From an uncultured Methylobacter sp. (lineage in GTDB: Bacteria; Pseudomonadota; Gammaproteobacteria; Methylococcales; Methylomonadaceae), in assembly GCA_903832775.1 (NCBI GenBank), contig CAILCX010000158.1:1-64000 (forward strand): a stretch of DNA of 64,000 nucleotides, written 5' to 3'. This document shows, piece by piece, positions 1 to 40,050 of the stretch. The notes beneath the pieces are model-generated. The model searched no databases. It was not told where the DNA came from and saw nothing but the letters and a program-made list of their open reading frames with translations. Every line of letters starts with the position of its first letter. The stretch's first letter is position 1. Position numbers and translations under genes: made by a program.

Positions 1-104
1 ATTTATTATTACTATTATGCAGGTTGAATCTTGTTGAAAAGTCATTTTTTTCTATACAAAACAGAAGCATGGATAGGTTCTAAAAATGCTGCTAAGCTTA
101 TCCT

Positions 105-220
105 CATCTTGTGTATAAAATGTTTATAAATATCATCTCGATGTTATTCACAGCTCTATCCACAAGTTATTAATAATTTCTTAACAGTTTTAGTCTATGT
201 TGTAAGCTGTGAATAATGTA
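105..220. other. DnaA-box-like cluster, possible oriC part
   Basis: Within the gene-free first 341 bases are four close matches to the DnaA box TTWTNCACA. TTATACACA reads on the minus strand at 110-118, TTATTCACA on plus at 144-152, CTATCCACA on plus at 156-164 (one mismatch), and TTATTCACA on minus at 208-216. The surroundings are very AT-rich, and a 14-bp AT palindrome sits at 234-247. Clustered boxes beside AT-rich DNA are typical of bacterial origins, but neither dnaA nor mnmG is visible because the window starts here. No other gene is seen in 1-341; it must also hold the moxR promoter. Confidence 0.45.
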
Positions 221-341
221 TAGAATAGAGATCCTTTTTATAAAAAGATGATTTTTAGACTAGTCATTTGTCAGAAAAAACTGCCTGATGCTAATTGTGT
301 GAGGCTTTCGTACTGTAGATTTAAGAGTAAATAACATCATC

Positions 342-1334
342 ATGTCAGAACTAAACAGCAGTGAAACTACCGTTCAACCGGCATTAATGGGGTTGAAAAA
401 TTATATTAATCAGCAGATTATCGGCCAGGATGTGCTTGTTGAGCGTATGCTGATTGGTCTGTTGGCTGATGGCCATATACTGGTTGAAGGCGCACCTGGT
501 TTGGCCAAGACTCGGGCAATCAATGTTTTAAGCAAAGGCATACAAGGTGATTTTCATCGGGTACAGTTCACTCCTGATTTATTACCTGCTGATTTGACTG
601 GTACTGAAATTTATCGTCCTCAGCAAGGAACATTTGAATTTCAAAAAGGTCCTTTATTTCATAATTTGATTTTGGCTGACGAAATCAATCGCTCACCAGC
701 CAAAGTTCAGGCCGCGTTGTTGGAAGCGATGGCTGAACGCCAAATAACCGTTGGACAGGCGACCTATCCCTTGCCAAAATTATTTATGGTGATGGCCACG
801 CAAAATCCAATCGAACAGGAAGGCACTTATCCCCTCCCTGAAGCGCAGTTGGATCGTTTTTTGTTGCATGTAAAAATTGATTATCCAAAAGCGGAACATG
901 AAAAAAGCATTTTGCATTTGGCTAGAGCAGAAGCACGATTTGGTTCTGTAAAAAATACTGAACAATATCAGCCAATCGATCAAAAGACTTTATTTGCCGC
1001 ACGCAACGAAGTGTTGGATTTACACATGGCCGAAAGTCTGGAAAACTATTTGCTACAAATTATTTTGGCAACCCGCAATCCTGGCGCTTATGGTCAGGAC
1101 TTGGCATCCTGGTTGCAGTATGGCGCAAGTCCAAGAGCCAGCATAGCGTTGGATCGCTGCTCAAGGGCAAAAGCCTGGTTGGCGCAACGTGATTTTGTTT
1201 GTCCGGAAGATATTCAGGATATGGCGTTTGACGTGTTAAGGCATCGTTTGATTTTGTCTTATGAAGCGGAAGCGGAAGGCATTACCACCGATCACTTTAT
1301 TAAAGAACTAATTTCCAGAGTTGCCGTACCTTGA
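342..1334 (+). CDS. MoxR-family AAA+ ATPase
   Basis: A 330-residue AAA+ ATPase of the MoxR family, which act as chaperone-like ATPases working with von Willebrand A (VWA) proteins. Walker A is GAPGLAKT at residues 50-57, Walker B ILADE at about 110-114, followed by sensor-like MATQNP. Length and layout are normal for the family. It opens an operon with DUF58, DUF4381, two VWA genes and batD, the usual MoxR/Bat neighbourhood; its stop overlaps the start region of the DUF58 gene. The substrate cannot be read from sequence. Methanol dehydrogenase maturation, the role that named MoxR, is not supported by any neighbour here. Confidence 0.93.
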   Translation: MSELNSSETTVQPALMGLKNYINQQIIGQDVLVERMLIGLLADGHILVEGAPGLAKTRAINVLSKGIQGDFHRVQFTPDLLPADLTGTEIYRPQQGTFEFQKGPLFHNLILADEINRSPAKVQAALLEAMAERQITVGQATYPLPKLFMVMATQNPIEQEGTYPLPEAQLDRFLLHVKIDYPKAEHEKSILHLARAEARFGSVKNTEQYQPIDQKTLFAARNEVLDLHMAESLENYLLQIILATRNPGAYGQDLASWLQYGASPRASIALDRCSRAKAWLAQRDFVCPEDIQDMAFDVLRHRLILSYEAEAEGITTDHFIKELISRVAVP

Positions 1335-1336
1335 TC

Positions 1337-2254
1337 ATGTTTAGAAAACAAGCCGATTCGGTCAATACGACTTCGAGTGAACTGATTTCAGCTTCACTTA
1401 AAACCCTGATTGATTTGGCAAGGCCTGCTTCAGGTTTAAATCTGAAACATTCAGCTATCCGTTCCGGACAAAGCGGTGGTTATGTGTCCCGTTTCAAAGG
1501 ACGGGGCATGGAGTTTGAAGAAGCCAGAATGTATCAGCCAGGCGATGACATACGCAGTATAGATTGGCGGGTTACTGCTCGAACCGGTAATACTCATACC
1601 AAAGTATTTCGAGAAGAACGGGAAAGACCAGTATTTATTTCTGTTGATAATCGTCCTGCGATGCACTTTGCGACGCGAGGTGTTTTTAAATCAGTTTTGG
1701 CAGCAAAACTTGCCGGTTTATTGGCATGGGCTGCACAGCATCATGGCGACAGGATTGGCGGGCAGATATTTACAGGTAATGATTGCCTTGAATTAAAACC
1801 TAAAAATGGCAAGCATGCGGTATTGCAGTTTTTAAATGCCCTTGTTTGCGAAGGTGTGTTAATAACCAAAAGCCCGGTTACAATGACTTTGGAAAAAGTA
1901 CTGGCAAGACTGATGCAGCATGCTCGTCCTGGAAGTCTGGTTTATATTATCAGTGATTTTCGTGGTATTAATGAACAGGTTGAAATCTATCTGGCAAAAT
2001 TAGCCAAGCATTGTGAAGTAGTTTTGATTTTTGTTTATGACCCACTGGAAAGTCAATTACCCGAAAAAGGCCGTTATCGTTTTACCGATGAAAAAAAAGA
2101 TGTGGTTATTGATACCGATGATCAACAACGCTTATTCAATTATCAACAACATTTCAACCAGCGACTGCAGCAATTGGAGCAATTAGCCAAAAAATTAGGT
2201 TTGGCGTTTATTCGATGCAGCACTACAGATGACCCAGTACAGCGGTTAAGATAA
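1337..2254 (+). CDS. DUF58 domain protein of the Bat operon
   Basis: About 305 residues of DUF58, a family almost always encoded after moxR. The conserved core GMEFEEARMYQPGDDIRSID followed by WRVTARTG is present near residues 55-85, and the C-terminal half has a VWA-like fold with VYIISDFRG. The ATG at 1337 is preferred; an in-frame TTG at 1331 overlaps the moxR stop and would add two residues. No signal peptide is seen. It is thought to assist VWA/MoxR complexes at the membrane, but its biochemical role is unknown. Confidence 0.9.
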   Translation: MFRKQADSVNTTSSELISASLKTLIDLARPASGLNLKHSAIRSGQSGGYVSRFKGRGMEFEEARMYQPGDDIRSIDWRVTARTGNTHTKVFREERERPVFISVDNRPAMHFATRGVFKSVLAAKLAGLLAWAAQHHGDRIGGQIFTGNDCLELKPKNGKHAVLQFLNALVCEGVLITKSPVTMTLEKVLARLMQHARPGSLVYIISDFRGINEQVEIYLAKLAKHCEVVLIFVYDPLESQLPEKGRYRFTDEKKDVVIDTDDQQRLFNYQQHFNQRLQQLEQLAKKLGLAFIRCSTTDDPVQRLR

Positions 2255-2317
2255 TTAAGCACCGATAGATAAAATCATTAAAGTGACGCTCTAACGACTT
2301 CAACTCAAAACAAAAAA

Positions 2318-2794
2318 ATGCAACCGACAGAACTTCTACTTAAAGATATACACGAACCAGTAGCCATAGGATGGTGGCCTCCAGCCATAGGCTGGTGGCT
2401 TTTGGCGATAACAGTTCCAATACTGATTATTTTTTTCGTTTGGGTTTATAAAAGATTAATGCGTAGGACAGCAATTAAAACGGCCACAAAAATATTATCA
2501 GAACTTAAACAGGATAAGACACGAAATAATCTGGAAATGGTAGCTGAACTTTCCATGCTGCTTAGACGTGTAGCGATCAGCGTATCACCAAGAGTCAAGT
2601 CAGCCGGATTGACGGGAACACAATGGTTGTCATTTCTTGACAGCACAGTAAAAGATTCACCGTTTAGTAGCGGCATTGGTCAGCTTTTGATTGAAGCGCC
2701 TTATCGAAAAATGCCTGTTACTGAACCGGAACGGTCTCAATTAATCAGCCTCTGCGAAAATTGGCTTAAAGCCCAAGTACAAAAAAAATCATGA
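2318..2794 (+). CDS. DUF4381 domain membrane protein
   Basis: 158 residues with one strong transmembrane helix at about 25-46 after a tryptophan-rich N-terminal stretch (IGWWPPAIGWWLL). The cytoplasmic C-terminal part contains AGLTGTQWLSFLD, typical of DUF4381 proteins found between DUF58 and the first VWA gene of Bat operons. It starts 63 bp after the DUF58 stop and overlaps the next gene by 4 bp (ATGA), so translation is probably coupled. Function unknown; a membrane anchor for the MoxR/VWA complex is an inference from context. Confidence 0.85.
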   Translation: MQPTELLLKDIHEPVAIGWWPPAIGWWLLAITVPILIIFFVWVYKRLMRRTAIKTATKILSELKQDKTRNNLEMVAELSMLLRRVAISVSPRVKSAGLTGTQWLSFLDSTVKDSPFSSGIGQLLIEAPYRKMPVTEPERSQLISLCENWLKAQVQKKS

Positions 2795-3771
2795 TTAACT
2801 TTGATTGGCCCTGGTTTTTGGCCGCGCTACCCTTACCTTTATTAATTCGCTGGCTGGTGTCAGCCAATTTGCCTGCTGAACAGGCTGCTTTAAAAGTTCC
2901 ATTTTTGGAAGATTTTTCTGAAGGTGAAACCACGGCTGTTTCTAAAACGGAGCAATGGCCCTTATTGCTGGCAGCACTTGCCTGGTTATTATTGGTGCTT
3001 GCTTGTACCCGTCCGCAATGGCTGGGTGAGCCTATTGAACAGGCGGTCAGTGGACGCGATTTAATGCTGGCGGTAGATTTATCCGGCAGCATGGAAGAAC
3101 AGGATTTTATGCTTAACAAACGACCGGTTGATCGCTTGACGGCTGCCAAAGGCGTAGCCAGTGATTTTATTAATCGACGTGTCGGTGACAGAGTCGGTTT
3201 GATTCTGTTTGGCACGCAGGCTTACCTACAAACGCCGTTAACTTTTGACCGAAAAACGGTGATGACCTTATTAAACGAATCGGTCATCGGTTTGGCCGGT
3301 GATAACACTGCAATAGGTGACGCCATTGGTTTGGCGGTGAAACGTCTTAAAGATGAACAGGCCAACAGCCGGGTTTTGGTGTTAATGACCGATGGTGCCA
3401 ATACCGCTGGTGAAGTTACTCCCTTGAAAGCCGCAGAATTGGCAGCTGCCCAGCATTTGAAAATTTATACCATCGGCATCGGTGCCGATGAAATGATCGT
3501 GCGCAGTTTTTTTGGTAACCGTAAAGTTAATCCTTCAGTGGATCTGGATGAAAAAACCTTGATAAAAATTGCCGAAAGTACCGGCGGCCAATATTACCGG
3601 GCCAGAAATACCGATGAGTTGAATAATATATATATGAGACTCGACGAGCTTGAACCGGTTGAAAAAGATAAACAATATTTCAGGCCTCGTAGTGAATTAT
3701 ATTTTTGGCCGTTAGGGTTGTCTTTAATGATCGCAGCGTTTATTGCGTTGTCCAAGGTGCGCTTATCATGA
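2791..3771 (+). CDS. batA: VWA-domain membrane protein, BatA-like
   Basis: 326 residues. Two N-terminal membrane helices (about 8-24 and 57-73) precede a von Willebrand A domain whose metal-ion site motif DLSGS lies at 96-100, with LMTDGANTAG later in the domain. A final hydrophobic helix lies near the C-terminus. This is the BatA architecture of Bacteroides aerotolerance-type operons. It overlaps both neighbours by 4 bp (ATGA), so it is translationally coupled to the DUF4381 gene and to the next VWA gene. The name is given by architecture and position; aerotolerance function in this organism is not shown. Confidence 0.85.
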   Translation: MINFDWPWFLAALPLPLLIRWLVSANLPAEQAALKVPFLEDFSEGETTAVSKTEQWPLLLAALAWLLLVLACTRPQWLGEPIEQAVSGRDLMLAVDLSGSMEEQDFMLNKRPVDRLTAAKGVASDFINRRVGDRVGLILFGTQAYLQTPLTFDRKTVMTLLNESVIGLAGDNTAIGDAIGLAVKRLKDEQANSRVLVLMTDGANTAGEVTPLKAAELAAAQHLKIYTIGIGADEMIVRSFFGNRKVNPSVDLDEKTLIKIAESTGGQYYRARNTDELNNIYMRLDELEPVEKDKQYFRPRSELYFWPLGLSLMIAAFIALSKVRLS

Positions 3772-5582
3772 ACCTGACTGACTTTCATTTTATCAGGCCA
3801 TACTGGTTACTGGCTGTTTTTCCTTATGGGTTAATTTTGGTTCTAATGCTTAAAAACAAGCTCAGTCAAGGTAATTGGTCAGCGGTTTGTGATGCTGAAT
3901 TGCTACCGTATTTGTTGCAGGAAAAAGCGGTCAACCAAAGTCGTTGGCCTATAACGGCCGGTGCAATCACGGCGTTGTTGGTGATTTTTTCGCTCGCTGG
4001 ACCTACCTGGGAACGGTTGCCTTCACCGGTTTTTAGAAATGATTCGGCACTGGTTATTGCTTTGGACTTATCCAATTCCATGAATGCCACCGATATAAAA
4101 CCCAGTCGTTTGATTATGGCCCGTTACAAAATTGCCGACATTTTAAAGCAAAGAAAAGATGGTCAAACGGCCTTGCTGGTTTATGCCGGTGATGCTTTTA
4201 TCGTAACGCCGTTAACCGATGACACTGAAACGATAGACAGTCAATTGTCGGCTTTAAATACCGATATTGTTCCTAGCCAAGGAAGCAACACAACATTGGC
4301 TTTGGAAAAAGCGCTTGAACTGTTTAAACAGGCCGGCTTGCAAAAAGGCCAGATTTTATTGGTAACCGATGGTGTTGAGCTTGATAAAGCCTTGGCAACG
4401 GTAAAAGTACTGGATACTTATCAGCTTTCTATTTTAGGTGTTGGAACTGACGACGGTGCGCCGATAGCGTTGCCAGATGGTGGTTTTGTGAAAGATCAGC
4501 AAGGCAATATTGTGGTGCCAAAATTAAATTCCAGCGAGCTTAAAACCTTGGCGCAAGTTGGAAATGGTATTTATCAAACCATCACTACCAATGACGCAGA
4601 TATTAAAAAATTGTTGGTTACTGTAGATAAATCGGAGCAGGCGCAAGGCAAGGAAAACGAAAATGTCTTATTGGATCAATGGGCTGAAATGGGCCCTTGG
4701 TTATTATTGTTGGCTTTACCGTTAGCGGCTTTGACCTTTAGAAAAGGCTTATTATGTTTTGCCTTATTGCTGATCTTACCCTTGCCAAAAAACAGTTATG
4801 CCTTGGGCTGGCAGGACTTATGGCAAAGCAAAGATCAGCAGGCTCAACAAGCCTATAAGAATAAAGACTTTGCGAAGGCGGCTGAACAATTTAAAAATCC
4901 AGAGTGGAAGGCGGTCGCCCAGTACAAAGCCGGGGATTATGAAAAGGCGCTGGAAAATCTGAAAAATAGCAATGCAGCCAGCAGCGCTTACAATCAGGGT
5001 AATACCCTGGCAAAAGCGGGACAGTTGGAAGAAGCTATAAAATCTTATGAAAAAGCCTTGAAGCTTAATCCTGACGATAGCGATGCCAAATTTAATAAAG
5101 ACCTTGTAGAAAAAGAACTCGAAAAACAGCAACAAGAGCAAAAGCAGGATCAGAAAAAAGACGACAAACAACAGTCCAAAGACGATTCAAAAAAAAACCA
5201 GGACGGGGATAAAAAAGACGGCGAGGATTCAGAAAAATCTAACGAACAACAAAAGTCTGAAGAAAAGCCCGAACAAAAATCGGAACAAAAACAATCAGAC
5301 CAGCAACAGTCTGAAGAAAAAAAGCAGCAGGATAAAGCGGAGCAACAAAAACAGGACGAATCAAAATCCGAGCAAGCCGAGCAGAACAAAAAAACGGATA
5401 AAGATGAGCCGGCCAATAAGCAGGCACCTGCTGAGATTCAACCTTCGGATGAACAAAAGCAGGCCAATGAACAATGGCTAAAAAGAATTCCCGATGATCC
5501 GGCCGGCTTACTCAAACGTAAATTCAAATATCAGTACGGCCAGCGTGGTCGGCAGGAAAGAGGAAATACAGGGGCTTGGTAG
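3768..5582 (+). CDS. batB: VWA plus TPR protein, BatB/BatC-like fusion
   Basis: 604 residues from the ATG at 3768, which overlaps the batA stop as ATGA; an upstream in-frame start at 3705 lies inside batA and is rejected. Order of parts: two N-terminal membrane helices, a VWA domain with DLSNS at 100-104, a further membrane helix at about 320-340, then TPR repeats (about 365-445; core EEAIKSYEKALKLNPDD), then some 130 residues of Lys/Gln/Glu/Asp/Ser low-complexity sequence. In some bacteria BatB and the TPR protein BatC are separate; here they are one chain. The charged tail is probably disordered. Confidence 0.85.
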   Translation: MNLTDFHFIRPYWLLAVFPYGLILVLMLKNKLSQGNWSAVCDAELLPYLLQEKAVNQSRWPITAGAITALLVIFSLAGPTWERLPSPVFRNDSALVIALDLSNSMNATDIKPSRLIMARYKIADILKQRKDGQTALLVYAGDAFIVTPLTDDTETIDSQLSALNTDIVPSQGSNTTLALEKALELFKQAGLQKGQILLVTDGVELDKALATVKVLDTYQLSILGVGTDDGAPIALPDGGFVKDQQGNIVVPKLNSSELKTLAQVGNGIYQTITTNDADIKKLLVTVDKSEQAQGKENENVLLDQWAEMGPWLLLLALPLAALTFRKGLLCFALLLILPLPKNSYALGWQDLWQSKDQQAQQAYKNKDFAKAAEQFKNPEWKAVAQYKAGDYEKALENLKNSNAASSAYNQGNTLAKAGQLEEAIKSYEKALKLNPDDSDAKFNKDLVEKELEKQQQEQKQDQKKDDKQQSKDDSKKNQDGDKKDGEDSEKSNEQQKSEEKPEQKSEQKQSDQQQSEEKKQQDKAEQQKQDESKSEQAEQNKKTDKDEPANKQAPAEIQPSDEQKQANEQWLKRIPDDPAGLLKRKFKYQYGQRGRQERGNTGAW

Positions 5583-5589
5583 GCAATAC

Positions 5590-6486
5590 ATGAACCACAA
5601 GCAAATTGCAATTTTCGGTGAATCTCTGTTTGATTACTTTCCAAACGGATTCCAAGTTTTGGGTGGGGCGCCTTTTAACGTAGCCTGGCATCTTCAGGCT
5701 TTTGCCCAGCGCACCTGTTTCATTAGTCGGATTGGTTCAGATACAACAGGAGATGAAATCAGACAGGCCATGCTGAGTTGGGGTATGGCTGTTGACCAAT
5801 TGCAAGTTGACCTTGTTTATCCTACCGGAACAGTGCAGGTGATGATTAATGACGGCGAACCTGATTATGTAATCTTGGCTGATCAGGCTTATGATTTTAT
5901 TGACGCGCAGCAACTTGATACCGAACGGCACTATAGCGTTATTTATCACGGAACCTTGGCATTGCGTAACTCTGTGTCGGAACGTGCTTTCCTTCGTTTA
6001 ACTTCAGGGCATCAAGGCAAAATTTTCATTGATGTTAATTTGAGACCGCCCTGGTGGCATAGTGAGTCGGTTAAGCAATGGCTTGCCAAGGCAGACTGGG
6101 TTAAGCTTAATCAGGATGAATTAATGCAATTAATGCCCCAAAAAAATACCCTGCAAGCCACGATGTGGCAGTTTTTAGCTCAATATGAACTGGAGGTTTT
6201 GGTGCTTACTTGTGGTAGCCAAGGTGCGTTGGCCCTAAACAACTTGAATGAGTTTATTGAAGTTTTGCCGAACAAGGCTTTGCAATTGGTCGATACCGTA
6301 GGTGCAGGCGATGCTTTTTCAGCTGTTTTACTATTGGGCATGCAACAAGGTTGGTCATTGCAATTGATTATGGAGCGAGCCCAAGCGTTCGCATCCGCTT
6401 TAGTAACTCAAACGGGTGCCACTGTTCAGGATTTGACTTTTTATCGACCGTTTATATCAGACTGGAATCTTGATTACTCTAAATGA
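5590..6486 (+). CDS. PfkB-family carbohydrate kinase (fructokinase-like)
   Basis: 298 residues from the ATG at 5590; a longer in-frame start at 5494 lies inside batB. It phosphorylates a sugar or nucleoside with ATP. The N-terminal sugar-binding signature GGAPFNVAWHL and the C-terminal DTVGAGDAFSA (235-245, catalytic Asp241) are both intact. Resemblance is closest to fructokinase-type members, but substrate cannot be fixed from sequence. It begins 7 bp after batB and overlaps batD by 4 bp (ATGA), so it is embedded in the Bat operon, where a sugar kinase is not normally expected. Confidence 0.88.
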   Translation: MNHKQIAIFGESLFDYFPNGFQVLGGAPFNVAWHLQAFAQRTCFISRIGSDTTGDEIRQAMLSWGMAVDQLQVDLVYPTGTVQVMINDGEPDYVILADQAYDFIDAQQLDTERHYSVIYHGTLALRNSVSERAFLRLTSGHQGKIFIDVNLRPPWWHSESVKQWLAKADWVKLNQDELMQLMPQKNTLQATMWQFLAQYELEVLVLTCGSQGALALNNLNEFIEVLPNKALQLVDTVGAGDAFSAVLLLGMQQGWSLQLIMERAQAFASALVTQTGATVQDLTFYRPFISDWNLDYSK

Positions 6487-8183
6487 ACATGAATGTTATG
6501 AAGAAATTATTATTGTTATTACTTTTGAGTGTCGTTAGTCCAGTATTTGCGGCACAAATTGGCGTTTCTTTTGATCGTAGTCCGGTCAGTCTGGAAGAGT
6601 CTTTCCAGATCATTTTTACGGCAGATGACACTCCGGATAATGATCCTGATTTTGCGTCGCTGGAACAGGACTTTGAGATACTCGGTCAAAGTCAGAGTAG
6701 TAATTCTTCCTGGGTGAACGGGCAGTCGAGCAAGACGATTCAGTGGACTCTTAACGTGATGGCGAAACATCCCGGCAGTCTGGTTGTGCCAGAAGTAAAA
6801 TTTGGTAAAGATGCAAGTTCGCCTGCCAGTATTTTGGTAACACAGACGACAGCCAATTCGGCCAATAAAGCAGTTGATACTGACGATGATTTATTTCTGG
6901 AAGTTGAGGCAACTCCCGAAAATCCCTATGTACAATCGCAGGTCCTTTACACTATTCGTTTGTATAGAAGAGTCGAGATCGCTCAAGCCGCTTTAAATGA
7001 GCCGGAACTGGGTGATGCGGTGATTGAAAAGTTAGGTGATGACAGTAATTATAATACCCAGATCAATGGTGTAAATTATCTGGTTACACAGCGCAAGTAT
7101 GCGATTTTTCCTCAAAAAAGTGGTTCTGTGACTATTAAACCAGTGTTATTAACTGCGGAGGTAGCGGTTAATAGTCGTCCGAATTTTAACGGATTTTTTA
7201 ATCAAAGAGCGACCAAAACCAAAAAGATAACTTCCAAATCAGTGACGCTGGAAGTAAAACCGGCACCGGCAACTTTTAACGGAAAACATTGGCTTTCTGC
7301 TGAACAATTGGTACTCAAAGAAGAATGGTCGAGCGATAACCAGCAAATGAAAGTCGGTGAACCTATGACTCGAACCCTCTCGTTAGTTGCTAAAGGTACT
7401 ACAGTCGGCCAGTTACCCGAATTAAATACAGAAAAAATTGAGGAGCAGTTAAAAACTTATCCGGATCAACCGGTATTGCGGGAACAAAAAAATCCGGAAG
7501 GCGTGAATGCATTCAGGGAAGAAAAAATAGCTATTATTCCCTCAAAAGCAGGCAGCTATAAATTATCTGCAATCGAAATTCCCTGGTTTAACACCCAGAC
7601 GCAAAAAATGGAAATAGCTAGAGTTCCTGAAGCAACAATTATTGCAAAAGATGCTGCAGGAGTAGAGATAACTGTTCCTGCAACAAGTTCACCTGTTTCT
7701 TTGGAGCCAGAATTAAAAGTGGTAGAAACACAGCTGGTACCGCAACAACAAACCAATATTTGGTTATGGGCTACGCTATTTTTAGCCTTGGGGTGGCTGA
7801 TTACAGTGCTTTATTTTTTGAAAATAAGGTCCTCTAAAAAACTGACACCGGAAAAAAATGAGTCAGAGGTTCGTTTGAAGGATTGCGTAAAAATACTAAA
7901 ACAAGCTTGCGCAGATAATGACCCTATAGCGGTAAAAGATGCTTTGTTAGCTTGGGGACAACTGAAATTTGTTGGTATGAGTTTGCAAAATGTTGGAGCC
8001 ATTGCAGAGTTGAGTGATGCGCGGTTGCGGGATGAAATTCGGTCTTTGAATCAGGCTTTATATTCAGATGCTAGTGTGGAATGGCAAGGGAAAAAACTGT
8101 TTCAGGCGTTTATTGAAAACAAAGCAAGGGATATAAAAACTGTTCAGGTTGATGATAAGCTTGAGCCGCTTAATCGATTGTGA
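6483..8183 (+). CDS. batD: BatD family protein
   Basis: 566 residues starting with a signal peptide (hydrophobic run after MKK, cleavage near PVFA-AQ), a long periplasmic part of beta-rich immunoglobulin-like repeats containing YVQSQVLYTIRLYRR, a membrane helix at about 418-441 and a cytoplasmic tail of about 120 residues. This is the BatD layout. The start at 6483 overlaps the sugar-kinase stop (ATGA); in-frame ATGs at 6489 and 6498 are alternatives. It ends the operon and faces nudE on the other strand. BatD is believed to work with the VWA proteins in envelope stress tolerance; the mechanism is unknown. Confidence 0.88.
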   Translation: MNMNVMKKLLLLLLLSVVSPVFAAQIGVSFDRSPVSLEESFQIIFTADDTPDNDPDFASLEQDFEILGQSQSSNSSWVNGQSSKTIQWTLNVMAKHPGSLVVPEVKFGKDASSPASILVTQTTANSANKAVDTDDDLFLEVEATPENPYVQSQVLYTIRLYRRVEIAQAALNEPELGDAVIEKLGDDSNYNTQINGVNYLVTQRKYAIFPQKSGSVTIKPVLLTAEVAVNSRPNFNGFFNQRATKTKKITSKSVTLEVKPAPATFNGKHWLSAEQLVLKEEWSSDNQQMKVGEPMTRTLSLVAKGTTVGQLPELNTEKIEEQLKTYPDQPVLREQKNPEGVNAFREEKIAIIPSKAGSYKLSAIEIPWFNTQTQKMEIARVPEATIIAKDAAGVEITVPATSSPVSLEPELKVVETQLVPQQQTNIWLWATLFLALGWLITVLYFLKIRSSKKLTPEKNESEVRLKDCVKILKQACADNDPIAVKDALLAWGQLKFVGMSLQNVGAIAELSDARLRDEIRSLNQALYSDASVEWQGKKLFQAFIENKARDIKTVQVDDKLEPLNRL

Positions 8184-18576: not shown

Positions 18577-19122
18577 ATGAACATTATCTCAACTAAAATT
18601 TCTGATTTATTAATCATTGAACCCAAGGTATTTGGGGATGAGAGAGGCTTTTTTTTTGAGAGCTTTAATCAGCGTCGATTCAATGAGCTCATTGGGCGCG
18701 ACGTCAATTTTGTGCAGGATAATCACAGTCGTTCTGTGAAAAACGTATTGCGTGGACTGCATTATCAAATCAGCCAACCTCAGGGCAAATTAGTGAGGGT
18801 CGTGCAAGGCAGTGTTTATGATGTAGCTCTTGATATACGTAAAAATTCCCCCACTTTTGGGCAGCATCTTGCGCTTGAATTGTCTGCTGAAAATAAACTA
18901 ATGTTATGGATACCTGAAGGTTTTGCGCATGGTTTTATGGTGTTGTCTGACACTGCTGAGTTTCTCTATAAAACGACCGACTATTGGGCGCCCGAATTCG
19001 AGCGCAGTATTGCCTGGAATGATCCCCAGATCAATATTCAATGGCCGGTTCAGGGCGAACCTACTTTGTCTGCAAAAGATCAGCTTGGCAAATCATTGAT
19101 CGAGGCGGAACATTTTATTTAA
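18577..19122 (+). CDS. rfbC: dTDP-4-dehydrorhamnose 3,5-epimerase
   Basis: 181 residues, RmlC cupin. Conserved FFESFNQRRF, QDNHSRSVKNVLRGLHYQ with the catalytic His of LRGLHYQ, and IPEGFAHGF are present. It epimerises C3 and C5 of dTDP-4-keto-6-deoxyglucose. It is the last gene of the rhamnose operon, 68 bp after rfbA, and converges on tsaD with 13 bp between stops. A second, more divergent member of this family lies at 59376-59936. Confidence 0.95.
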   Translation: MNIISTKISDLLIIEPKVFGDERGFFFESFNQRRFNELIGRDVNFVQDNHSRSVKNVLRGLHYQISQPQGKLVRVVQGSVYDVALDIRKNSPTFGQHLALELSAENKLMLWIPEGFAHGFMVLSDTAEFLYKTTDYWAPEFERSIAWNDPQINIQWPVQGEPTLSAKDQLGKSLIEAEHFI

Positions 19123-35742: not shown

Positions 35743-36546
35743 TTAATCCTGTTCATACCCTTCAATCTTATCCAATTTAATGTTCATTTCGTCTGATGGA
35801 TAATCTCCATCCGGTTTGGGCGCAAAAAATCTTGAACATAACAAGCCTAGCTCAAACAACATCCACATGGGAACGGCCAATAATGTTTGCGAGATTGCAT
35901 CCGGCGGGGTCAATACCGCACCGACTATAAAGGCTCCGACAATAACATAAGGGCGTTTTTCAGCAAGTCCAGCCGGGGTTATTAATCCTGTCAAAACCAA
36001 AACGATGGTAAAAATCGGTACCTCAAAACAAACACCAAAAGCAAAAAACAGGCCCAAAACAAAATCAAGATACTTGGCAATATCGGTCATTACCGCTACG
36101 CCTTCAGGTGCGGCTGCGGTCAGAAAACCAAACACCAAAGGCAGAACCACGAAGTAGGCAAACGCTACGCCCATATAGAAAAGCAGAGTGCTGGCAATAA
36201 GCAGTGGTAATATCATACGCCGTTCCCGTTTATACAAGCCTGGGGCTACAAAGGCCCAGAATTGATAAAGGATGACCGGTACACTGATAAAAATGGCGAC
36301 GACTAAGGCAAGTTTGAAGGGTGTAAAAAAAGGCGATGCCACATCAATAGCTATCATGGTGCTGTTTTTTGGCAAATGCTGCATCAGCGGACCGGCTAAT
36401 TGGGTGTATATTTGATTGGCATAGGAAGCAAGTCCTAAAAACATAAGTAATATACATAAAACAACTTTTAAGAGTCTATCACGCAGTTCGATCAAGTGAC
36501 TGATGAATGGCTGCTCTCCTGTTGCTTCAGTGTTATTTTGGCTCAT
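35743..36546 (-). CDS. tatC: Sec-independent translocase TatC
   Basis: 267 residues from the ATG at 36546, after which the family start ([15 protein letters not shown]) follows; the longer frame from 36651 lies inside tatB. Six membrane helices are expected and visible; [12 protein letters not shown] and [19 protein letters not shown] are TatC hallmarks. With TatA and TatB it exports folded proteins carrying twin-arginine signals. The start overlaps the tatB end by 14 bp. Confidence 0.96.
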
Positions 36547-36874
36547 GTTGTTCTGAATCATCTGCCGTTGCTGAGATTGACGTGGATTTAAGCGTTTCCG
36601 AAGCTTCATCAACAATATGACGAACCTCGGCAATTGCATTTTTTCCTTCATTCAAGAAGCTTTCTTGAAGAATTGCCTGTTCTTGAAATATTTGTCTCAA
36701 TTCTTCGGCCTGCAGTTCAAGTTTGATTTCTTCCTTAACGGAAGCAACCATTGTGCGGGTTTTACCCAGCCAGAAACCTGCAAGCCTTGCAACTTTGGGC
36801 AATCTTTCAGGTCCGATTACCAATAAACTTACCAGAGCTATCAAGCACAATTCGGAAAAGCCAACATCAAACAT
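36533..36874 (-). CDS. tatB: Sec-independent translocase TatB
   Basis: 113 residues: short N-terminal membrane helix ([20 protein letters not shown]), then an amphipathic helix ([16 protein letters not shown]) and a long charged tail. The GPERLP hinge identifies TatB rather than TatA. It forms the substrate-receptor complex with TatC. Five bp downstream of tatA. Confidence 0.95.
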
Positions 36875-36879
36875 AAAAA

Positions 36880-37092
36880 TCAGTCTTTATCGGTTTTTTT
36901 GAAAGTGACTTCACCTTCGATGGTTTCACCTTTATCATCTGAGGGTTTGTTTTCTTCGCCGTCTTTGATGGCTGAACGAAAGCCTTTGATGGCTCCGCCC
37001 AAATCAGTTCCGATATTACGAAGGCGTTTGGTGCCGAAAACAACGATGACAATGGCTAATACAACTAATAAATGAGTTACGCTGAGGCCCAT
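36880..37092 (-). CDS. tatA: Sec-independent translocase TatA
   Basis: 70 residues from the ATG at 37092, which has GGAG six bases upstream; the longer frame from 37221 overlaps hisE and is rejected. Membrane helix [20 protein letters not shown], the [20 protein letters not shown] hinge and amphipathic helix are diagnostic. It forms the variable-size export pore. It follows hisE by 55 bp in a his-tat gene string. Confidence 0.95.
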
Positions 37093-37147
37093 TCTAAACT
37101 CCAATAGAGACGTTAATGTTGTTAAAAACCTTGAAAAATCAAGGTCG

Positions 37148-37465
37148 CTATTTGTTGCGTTGCTCCTTTTCTTCCAGGCCGGACAAGCCAAAACGACGAT
37201 GCAGTTCCTGCAAAACATCATCTGGCCCCAGTCCCTGATGGGCTAACAACACCATACAATGAAACCACAAATCGGCAGTTTCATAAATAATTTGCTTTTT
37301 ATCACCATCTTTAGCGGCGATAACAGTTTCTGTAGCTTCCTCGCCTATTTTTTTCAGTATGCTGTCGAGCCCTTTAGCATAAAGACTCGCCACATAAGAT
37401 TTGTCGGCTGCTTCCAGTTTGCGTTGCTCAAGAATTTCTGCCAGTTGCTGTAATACGTCACTCAT
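37148..37465 (-). CDS. hisE: Phosphoribosyl-ATP diphosphatase
   Basis: 105 residues. It performs step 2 of histidine synthesis. Conserved [20 protein letters not shown] and [14 protein letters not shown] carry the acidic metal-binding residues. It is a separate protein here, whereas E. coli has a HisIE fusion. The start overlaps the hisI stop by 4 bp. Confidence 0.95.
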
Positions 37466-37857
37466 GATTTTTTATAAATAGCTTCAGGGTCTTTTAATAC
37501 AGGTTCGACAGTTTGCCATTGACCGTCAACCAAACTTCGATAAAAGCAGCTTTCACGTCCGGTATGACAGGCAATATCACCTTCCTGTTCTATTTTTAAC
37601 AGAATAACGTCTTCATCGCAATCCATGCGCAAATCAAGAATCTTCTGTCTATGACCGGATTCCTCGCCTTTACGCCATAAGCGTTTGCGTGATCTTGACC
37701 AGTAAACGGCATAACCCTCTGCAACGGTTAAAGCCAGGGCTTCACGGTTCATCCAGGCGAACATCAGTACTTTGCCCTTTTTAGCCTGTTGCGCGATAAC
37801 CGGTACCAGGCCGTCTTCGGTCCAGCGTATCTGTTCCAGCCAGGAAATGTCGGTCAT
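37462..37857 (-). CDS. hisI: Phosphoribosyl-AMP cyclohydrolase
   Basis: 131 residues, step 3 of histidine synthesis. [36 protein letters not shown] and [15 protein letters not shown] with the following [10 protein letters not shown] hold the zinc and magnesium ligands. It overlaps both hisF (4 bp) and hisE (4 bp), indicating coupled translation. Confidence 0.95.
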
Positions 37858-38627
37858 AACCGTACCTCTATACCACGAGAGGCCATGTGCTGTTTGGCTT
37901 GATTAATGGTGAATTCGGCAAAATGGAAAATACTGGCTGCCAACACCGCATCGGCTTTGCCCTGAATAACGCCATCGGCCAGATGATCCAGACAGCCTAC
38001 GCCACCGGAAGCAATGACTGGAACGGTCACTGCTTCGCTAATCGCGCGGGTTAAAGGTAAATCAAAACCTTCACGGGTACCGTCTCTGTCCATGCTGGTT
38101 AACAAAATTTCACCGGCACCGAAGTCGACCATTTTCTTGGCCCAGGCAATTGCATCAATACCTGTAGTTTTACGACCACCGTGGGTAAAAATTTCCCAGC
38201 GATCATACTCTCCATTCTGACTGACTTTTTTTGCGTCGATGGCGACGACAATACATTGTGAGCCAAAGCGTTCGGCCGCTTCACGAACAAAATCCGGGTT
38301 AAAAACCGCCGCACTGTTAATGCCGACTTTATCAGCGCCGGCATTCAGCATGCGGCGAATATCGTCCAAAGTTCGGATGCCACCGCCTACAGTCAGCGGA
38401 ATAAAAACTTCACTGGCGACCTGCTCAACAACATGCACAATCGTATCGCGATTGTCATGCGTTGCGGTAATGTCCAAAAAGGTAATTTCATCTGCGCCTT
38501 CACGGTCATAACGTCTGGCGATTTCAACGGGATCACCCGCATCACGAATATCGACAAATTTTACGCCTTTAACGACGCGCCCATTATCGACATCCAGGCA
38601 GGGAATAATACGTTTGGCTAAACTCAT
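37854..38627 (-). CDS. hisF: Imidazole glycerol phosphate synthase, cyclase subunit
   Basis: 257 residues, TIM barrel. It starts [20 protein letters not shown] (catalytic Asp in CLDVD), with [15 protein letters not shown] and [20 protein letters not shown] (second catalytic Asp). It makes imidazole glycerol phosphate and AICAR, using ammonia from HisH. Two bp after hisA. Confidence 0.97.
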
Positions 38628-38629
38628 GG

Positions 38630-39364
38630 TTATTGAAAAGATTCCGCTAATTTTTCGGCTTCTTCAAAATCCAGTGTGCCTTCGTAAATCGCACGACCGG
38701 TGATGGCACCCATAATCCCTTCATGAGCAACAGCTCCCAAGGCTCTGATGTCGTCCATATTGGTGATACCGCCGGAAGCAATGACGGGAATTCGAATGGC
38801 GCGAGCCAGTTTGGCGGTAGCTTCAACATTAACACCACCCATCATCCCGTCTCGGGAAATATCGGTATAGATGATAGCTTCAACCCCGTCTTCCTCAAAA
38901 TGTTGAGCCAGATCAATGACGTCATGTTTGGATAGTTTGGACCAGCCATCGATTGCGACTTTGCCGTCTTTTGCGTCCAGACCCACGATGATACGACGTG
39001 GATATTCTCTTGCCATATCTCTGACGAAATGGGGTTCATTAACCGCTTTGGTTCCGATAATAACGTATTCCACGCCCGCATCCAGGTAAGCCTGAATGGT
39101 TTCTTCGTCACGAATACCGCCGCCAATTTGCACGGGAACATCTGGATAAGCTGCAACGATGGCATGAATAACGTCGGCATTTCTGGGTTGTCCGGCAAAG
39201 GCGCCATCGAGGTCAACCAAATGAATTCTTCTTGCGCCAGCTGCAACCCATTTGCCGGCAATAGCAACAGGGTCATCAGAAAAAACCGTATTATCGTCCA
39301 TGCGTCCCTGACGCAAACGAACACAGCGACCCTCTTTTAAATCGATTGCAGGTATTAATAACAT
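38630..39364 (-). CDS. hisA: Phosphoribosylformimino-5-aminoimidazole carboxamide ribotide isomerase
   Basis: 244 residues, TIM barrel related to HisF. It begins [20 protein letters not shown] with the catalytic Asp in PAIDLK, then [14 protein letters not shown] and [14 protein letters not shown] with the second catalytic Asp. Fourth-step isomerase of histidine synthesis. Gap of 41 bp from hisH. Confidence 0.97.
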
Positions 39365-39405
39365 AACACTAAAATCCTCAGCAACTTGTAATCAGTCAAT
39401 AGTAA

Positions 39406-40050
39406 TTAAACTTCTCCGTCCCAATGTAAAAAGTTGTTAAGCAGTTGTAAGCCAACTGCCTGACTTTTTTCGGGATGAAATTGTACGGCAAAAACATTAT
39501 CTTGTGCCAAAGCACAGGCAAATGCTTCTGGGTATTGGGTGGTTGCCGCGATAAGTGCGGACGTGTCAGGTTGCGCATAATAACTGTGCACAAAATAAAA
39601 GCGGCTATCTTGCTGAATGTTGTCCCATAGCGGATGCTTTTGCGTCTGGTGAACCTGGTTCCAGCCCATGTGAGGGATCTTAAGTGTTTCGCCCTCTTGG
39701 TTTTTTAATGAGTCGGAAAAATGCTTGACGTGTCCTGGAAAAATGTCCAGACATTTTATTCCACCATTTTCTTCACTGTCAGTTAACAAAGCCTGCATTC
39801 CCAGGCAAATGCCTAATAAAGGCTTGTTTAGCGCAACTTGCCGGATGACCCTGGATAAACCTGATTCTGTCAGCGCCTGCATACAATCCCTAATAGCACC
39901 AACGCCAGGGAATACAACACGATCAGCCTGCAGAATGGAAGCGGCGTCGGAAACACAAATAACATCGACTTCCGGCGCTGCATGTTGCAGCGCTTTTACG
40001 ATGGAATGCAGATTACCCATTCCATAATCAATTACGGCGACAGAAGACAT
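39406..40050 (-). CDS. hisH: Imidazole glycerol phosphate synthase, glutaminase subunit
   Basis: 214 residues, class I glutamine amidotransferase. It begins VAVIDYGMGNLHSIVKAL; the nucleophile Cys lies in LLGICLGMQAL and the catalytic His/Glu in AVQFHPEKSQ. It supplies ammonia to HisF. 26 bp after hisB. Confidence 0.97.
   Translation of the reverse strand: MSSVAVIDYGMGNLHSIVKALQHAAPEVDVICVSDAASILQADRVVFPGVGAIRDCMQALTESGLSRVIRQVALNKPLLGICLGMQALLTDSEENGGIKCLDIFPGHVKHFSDSLKNQEGETLKIPHMGWNQVHQTQKHPLWDNIQQDSRFYFVHSYYAQPDTSALIAATTQYPEAFACALAQDNVFAVQFHPEKSQAVGLQLLNNFLHWDGEV

Follow-up and report, generated by a model that had tools for sequence, protein, structure and literature searches.

Bacterial replication origins often adjoin dnaA, and it is not settled how origin and gene come apart, as they have in E. 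coli. The oriC of E. coli contains many GATC sites; datA and DARS, which lie elsewhere than oriC, pair DnaA boxes with an IHF site; and the parts of the bipartite origins of H. pylori and B. subtilis lie much closer together than 9–24 kb. In PMC8287927, a putative basal unwinding system was searched for as a DnaA box up to 16 bp from at least three NAN trinucleotides, with spacers peaking near 10–13 bp and a trio consensus of 3'-GAT-5' in a motif called degenerate; the authors also comment there on rearrangement separating an origin from dnaA. Our literature search, which covered few subscription papers and did not extend to the DoriC tables, found no description of a moxR-side origin, nor any of origin modules in methanotrophs of the Gammaproteobacteria.

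Here we describe a candidate origin upstream of moxR in an uncultured Methylobacter sp., at the left edge of the 64,000-nucleotide stretch that we analyzed (the window). Base 1 of the window is base 1 of its contig, C158 (74,323 bases; genome of 3.86 Mb in 215 contigs), so the candidate is cut short. We consider it probable that this edge is oriC, or most of it, truncated by the contig end; our best reading places it in a lineage whose working origin may have switched between twin modules. Judged by its sequence, the site is very probably an oriC or a former oriC, and it is likely to be the working origin of this genome.

Positions 1–341 are intergenic, overlapped by no ORF of at least 60 aa, and 71% A+T (Table 1). 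The initial annotation, which had suspected an origin here, was right about the three exact TTWTNCACA boxes, the near match and the AT-rich, gene-free setting. Its judgment that such density is unlikely by chance was also borne out: of 2000 simulated 64-kb windows, 2 contained three exact boxes inside 107 bp, and of 20,000 simulated 341-bp sequences with this region's dinucleotide composition, 1 contained at least three. The left edge therefore holds what is looked for in an oriC, an intergenic box cluster beyond chance. Exact boxes are not enriched over the window as a whole (10 vs 9.6 expected), the next one beyond the cluster lying at 18,735. An Rfam search of positions 1–3000 returned no match.

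Table 1. Features at the left edge of the window and in its right flank.
Feature	Position	Strand	Remarks
DnaA-trio-like repeat TAATAGTAATAAT	5–17	-	Sole exact copy in this genome; conserved in the alignment
DnaA box TTTTCAACA, imperfect	32–40	-	R1-like position, 14 bp from trio; composite match
Weak DnaA box TTATCCTCA	98–106	+	One mismatch; M. luteus has TTATCCACA in this column
Exact DnaA box TTATACACA	110–118	-	TTWTNCACA; near matches in this column in relatives
Near DnaA box TTATAAACA	121–129	-	Aligned relatives: TTATCCACA in 4/5, TTATGCACA in 1/5
Exact DnaA box TTATTCACA	144–152	+	TTWTNCACA; in the alignment
Near DnaA box CTATCCACA	156–164	+	Core ATNCACA retained in 6/6 aligned sequences
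Exact DnaA box TTATTCACA	208–216	-	TTWTNCACA; adjoins moxR promoter-like motif; not conserved in five aligned relatives
TGTATARAATA, probable moxR promoter -10 region	217–227	+	10 invariant columns in six sequences
moxR, AAA+ ATPase gene, right flank	342–1334	+	ORF; Pfam AAA_3, 3.8e-63
Genes after moxR (DUF58, VWA, others)	1331–8183	+	ORFs; co-directional, pointing away from the site

Aligned with five relatives (six sequences), the window edge shows conservation of the trio region, of the R1-like box and of two box pairs, one leftward and one rightward; some boxes vary between perfect and imperfect from species to species. Against the origin reading, perfect boxes are fewer at the site described here than at the complete origins of relatives, and in a close relative (G019) no box is seen ahead of moxR over the 311 bp available before its contig ends. 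The extent first assigned to the site (105–220) thus covered real boxes but omitted the box–14 bp–trio element at 5–40 and took in the unconserved box at 208–216. The latter abuts the conserved TGTATARAATA, which by its sequence is probably the -10 region of the moxR promoter, as might be expected if DnaA controlled moxR transcription through these boxes. We hold that explanation to be very improbable, since conservation fails at precisely the abutting box and the same module is found at dnaA–dnaN in other species.

The element at 5–40 is distinguished by its composite form. By itself, the 13-base repeat shows no enrichment in this genome (28 places with at most one mismatch vs 24 for a reversed control), whereas the composite TTWTNNACA-N14-TARTARTAA occurs once, here, and its reversed control not at all. 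A scan of 46 genomes turned up 37 composites, spread over 27 of them, and 2 matches to the reversed pattern. Loci were assigned to thirty of the 37: 8 are upstream of moxR, 15 adjoin dnaA or dnaN and 7 are near none of 13 reference genes; five of the remaining seven were put at dnaA–dnaN by other analyses (G005, G006, G016:C102:88556, G026, G031:C99), and two (G016:C102:94060, G038:C157) were counted at neither locus. At least 28 of the 37 places thus sit upstream of moxR or at dnaA–dnaN. At the moxR sites of relatives the box is TTATCAACA, TTATCCACA or TTATACACA with the 14-bp spacing kept (13 bp in M. luteus), and one relative (G015) pairs the box TTATCACCA with a weaker repeat. A chance cluster of box-like words in A+T-rich DNA would agree with the ordinary box count of the whole window; set against the simulations, the conserved columns and the 37 vs 2 composites, it is scarcely credible.

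The right flank is moxR, as the initial annotation stated, and its closest matches in a homologue scan carry the labels Methylobacter or Methylococcaceae. The family search among the genes behind moxR covered DUF58 and the first VWA gene. By synteny, the opposite flank is a DUF4124 gene: such a gene flanks the moxR-side site in three relatives (G002, G003, G004), and its counterpart here begins 187 bp inside contig C84, the placement expected if C84 adjoins the left edge of C158. The start of C84 is A+T-rich as judged by eye, and the ends of C84 and C158 have no 12-mer in common, the join having no overlap behind it. Likewise, the last 300 bases at the ends of C158, C45 and C67 have no common 14-mer. 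The assembly is broken at both candidate origin sites (window position 1; C45:9862; C67:47508; C84:1). Among the moxR homologues, one at 67% identity comes from a MAG titled Klebsiella pneumoniae (L060), probably a mislabelled bin, and another genome (G010, L029) has a moxR 82% and a dnaN 55% identical to those of the window organism and may be a mixed bin.

The second candidate site in this genome lies between dnaA and dnaN. Contig C45, which carries dnaA, ends 110 bp past the gene, and the end of C67 cuts the first codons of dnaN, so most of the dnaA–dnaN spacer is absent from the assembly. A clear oriC beside dnaA, which was to speak against the moxR site, could accordingly be looked for only in part: the spacer is mostly unassembled, but the 110 bp present carry two exact boxes (C45:9765 and 9833). 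Two other positions were rejected. Beside mnmG, the adjoining C76 spacer has no exact box and only scattered one-mismatch boxes, and both exact boxes in this part of C76 fall inside ORFs that resemble ATP synthase genes; between rpmH and dnaA there is no exact or one-mismatch box. Elsewhere on C45 (L088:1–4400), mnmE has as neighbors a gene that Pfam identifies as a DNA methylase and an ORF that looks helicase-like by eye; together they resemble a restriction-modification system. Palindromes of paired DnaA boxes, their words facing each other 5 bp apart, also occur away from the origin: at least seven on M. luteus scaffold G001:C1 (268674, 753499, 753851, 3423677, 3568653, 3831640, 3902588) and at least four in this genome (C1:6047, 6 bp apart; C14:17349; C82:541; C93:42993), in each case among the first 100 places of two lists of 159 and 128.

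We then compared both loci across relatives, scoring a locus as present when it held at least two exact boxes; in genomes for which no dnaA had been located, the count ran over the 1200 bp ahead of dnaN. Among 25 genomes assessable at both loci, 5 had boxes at moxR alone, 15 at dnaN alone, 5 at neither locus and none at both (Fisher p = 0.005, relatedness of the genomes ignored). The 25 come from 30 genomes with a dnaN locus, the window organism, G014, G032, G038 and G041 being excluded for a dnaN side of at most 100 bp; genomes whose dnaN locus was not fetched lie outside the count, among them G011 (3 boxes at moxR, 1 at dnaA–dnaN). The five "neither" genomes include G023 and G026, both cut by contig ends, and G026 has 8 boxes beside dnaA on another contig. 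Tandem modules beside dnaA occur in G005 (L098, L172), G006 (L099) and G026 (L198), with up to 12 exact boxes. In Methylobacter psychrophilus a third box–trio module was seen (G005:C63:58772; L172:3772), on the far side of a region that carries a phage-type integrase beside mnmE.

The predominance of dnaN-only genomes, the two exact boxes immediately after dnaA and the skew of this genome, described below, are what one would expect if the working origin were at dnaA–dnaN and the moxR module were a decaying duplicate. In five relatives with a moxR cluster (G001, G002, G003, G004, G015), however, the dnaA–dnaN spacer is only 184–194 bp long with 0–1 exact boxes, and the skew of three relatives favors moxR; we therefore think a working origin at dnaA–dnaN unlikely.

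To locate the origin by GC skew, we fitted a change point to third-position skew allowing for gene strand and compared the excess -2lnL at moxR and at dnaN. Values were 1.8 vs 17.5 in G003, 1.2 vs 5.0 in M. luteus and 0.0 vs 5.5 in G011, where the signal was weak (gain of 5.6, range about the whole contig). In M. luteus, four narrower ranges gave 1.2–2.7 vs 5.5–9.1 and the widest 0.5 vs 3.4; its 95% range was 2485–2495 kb (ORFs of at least 120 aa, 2400–2560 kb), 2483.5–2506 kb over 2320–2640 kb and 2485–2507.5 kb with ORFs of at least 100 aa, so that its skew favors moxR while leaving room for dnaN. G004 leaned slightly to dnaN (4.05 at moxR vs 2.88) with no usable skew signal. Of the four relatives, three thus have a strand-controlled skew that prefers moxR to dnaN, one of them strongly. 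With the contigs of this genome placed end to end, the best change point was 77.5 kb (range 74.5–88.0), inside C45 and between the two sites; moxR (64.0 kb) was 4.66 worse and outside the range, dnaN (83.0 kb) 4.64 worse and inside it. The two sites fit the skew equally badly, and because the range excludes moxR, the reading of the window edge as the working origin is weakened and its dnaN rival strengthened. The skew check suggested by the initial annotation therefore came out in favor of moxR in three relatives, but not in this genome, whose best point matches neither site, nor in G004.

Raw cumulative minima fell near moxR in M. luteus (2486.5 kb) and G011 (79.5 kb) and at moxR in the joined contigs of this genome (64.5 kb). 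That of G003 (38.0 kb) lay between the sites, nearer dnaN (44.9) than moxR (21.1), and that of G004 was the end of the stretch. Among genomes without a moxR cluster, the strand-controlled fit gave no signal in G006 and G040, and in G005 it favored the third module (C63:58,772) over dnaN (0.0 vs 7.0), the raw minimum being at dnaN. Over the first 35 kb of C158, genes of both strands show the plus strand to be G-rich (24 plus-strand, only 4 minus-strand genes), so forks enter C158 from the left, which is compatible with either candidate site. A short reversal of skew was seen at 36000–40000 of the window, within a mostly G-rich strand. Third-position skew of mnmE alone was dropped as an origin-side test: an initial clean reversal became noisy over 30 genomes, in a set where several ORFs were mispicked and the classes were not separated.

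Several genomes retain traces of both modules. A dnaA–dnaN remnant (composite plus one exact box) was present in the moxR-cluster genomes G001, G003, G004, G015 and G011, and no composite remnant was found there in G002 and G014. Where both composites lie on one contig, they are 9.3 kb (G011), 13.4 kb (M. luteus, G001, with 13-bp spacers), 15.1 kb (G004) and 23.7 kb (G003) apart. Paired composites at such distances would also suit a DnaA-titrating or regulating site of the datA or DARS type, or one half of a bipartite origin looping to dnaA–dnaN. A titration site would need no trio at a fixed spacing, and the parts of known bipartite origins are, as stated above, much closer together; we regard either arrangement as distinctly improbable. 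The distribution of the two modules over these genomes is consistent with an ancient pair from which either member has since been lost. Tentatively, and with somewhat less than even confidence, we propose that Methylobacter and its kin inherited two origin modules, at moxR and at dnaA–dnaN, 9–24 kb apart, and that switching may proceed by decay of one. In a three-protein tree both classes were scattered over more than one place, with weak support at key nodes (0.24, 0.27, 0.66), and we therefore claim no number of switches. If the proposal holds, the genomes with both composites (G001, G003, G004, G011) would be natural intermediates in an origin leaving dnaA. Full, remnant or twin modules at two nearby loci in cultured and uncultured methanotrophs would make origin–dnaA separation testable by comparison and experiment, and the site would supply a practical origin position for these genomes.

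The origin reading draws support from the inverted box array, the conserved box–14 bp–trio composite and the skew in three of four relatives. From the motifs, their spacing, conservation and position, and the skew of C158, DnaA binding, unwinding and firing can be predicted as follows. DnaA would load on two outward-facing groups, 110–129 leftward and 144–164 rightward, and on the R1-like box, from which it would spread onto the trio-like repeat, by analogy with E. coli and B. subtilis. The A+T-rich DNA to the left of the repeat would then open; the unwinding element presumably extends past the contig end, and the opening would lie in the gap between C158 and C84, if C84 is correctly placed by synteny. 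One fork would move right through moxR along C158.

The closest likeness is to oriC of E. coli, in which a DnaA box, R1 (TGTGGATAA), lies 14 bp from TTATTA, the spacing of the window composite (same-strand form TTATCCACA, 14 bp, TAATAA; mnmG–mioC context). In both cases the origin is not beside dnaA. The E. coli origin differs in its neighbors, mnmG and mioC there against moxR and, by synteny, DUF4124 here; in its many GATC sites, of which the 341 bp here hold one; and in that dnaA–dnaN is 9–24 kb from the moxR site in four relatives. With the basal unwinding system of B. subtilis and many other bacteria, the window element has in common a DnaA box, a spacer and at least three NAN trinucleotides, its 14-bp spacing falling within the 16 bp searched in PMC8287927. 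Read 3'–5' the repeat is AAT-AAT-GAT-AAT by inspection, and it differs from B. subtilis trios in having a single exact GAT among AAT units, a comparison by unit sequence. The dnaA–dnaN origins of Methylococcales, some tandemly duplicated (G005, G006, G026), stand at the other locus and have the same composite and inverted box groups as the moxR site.
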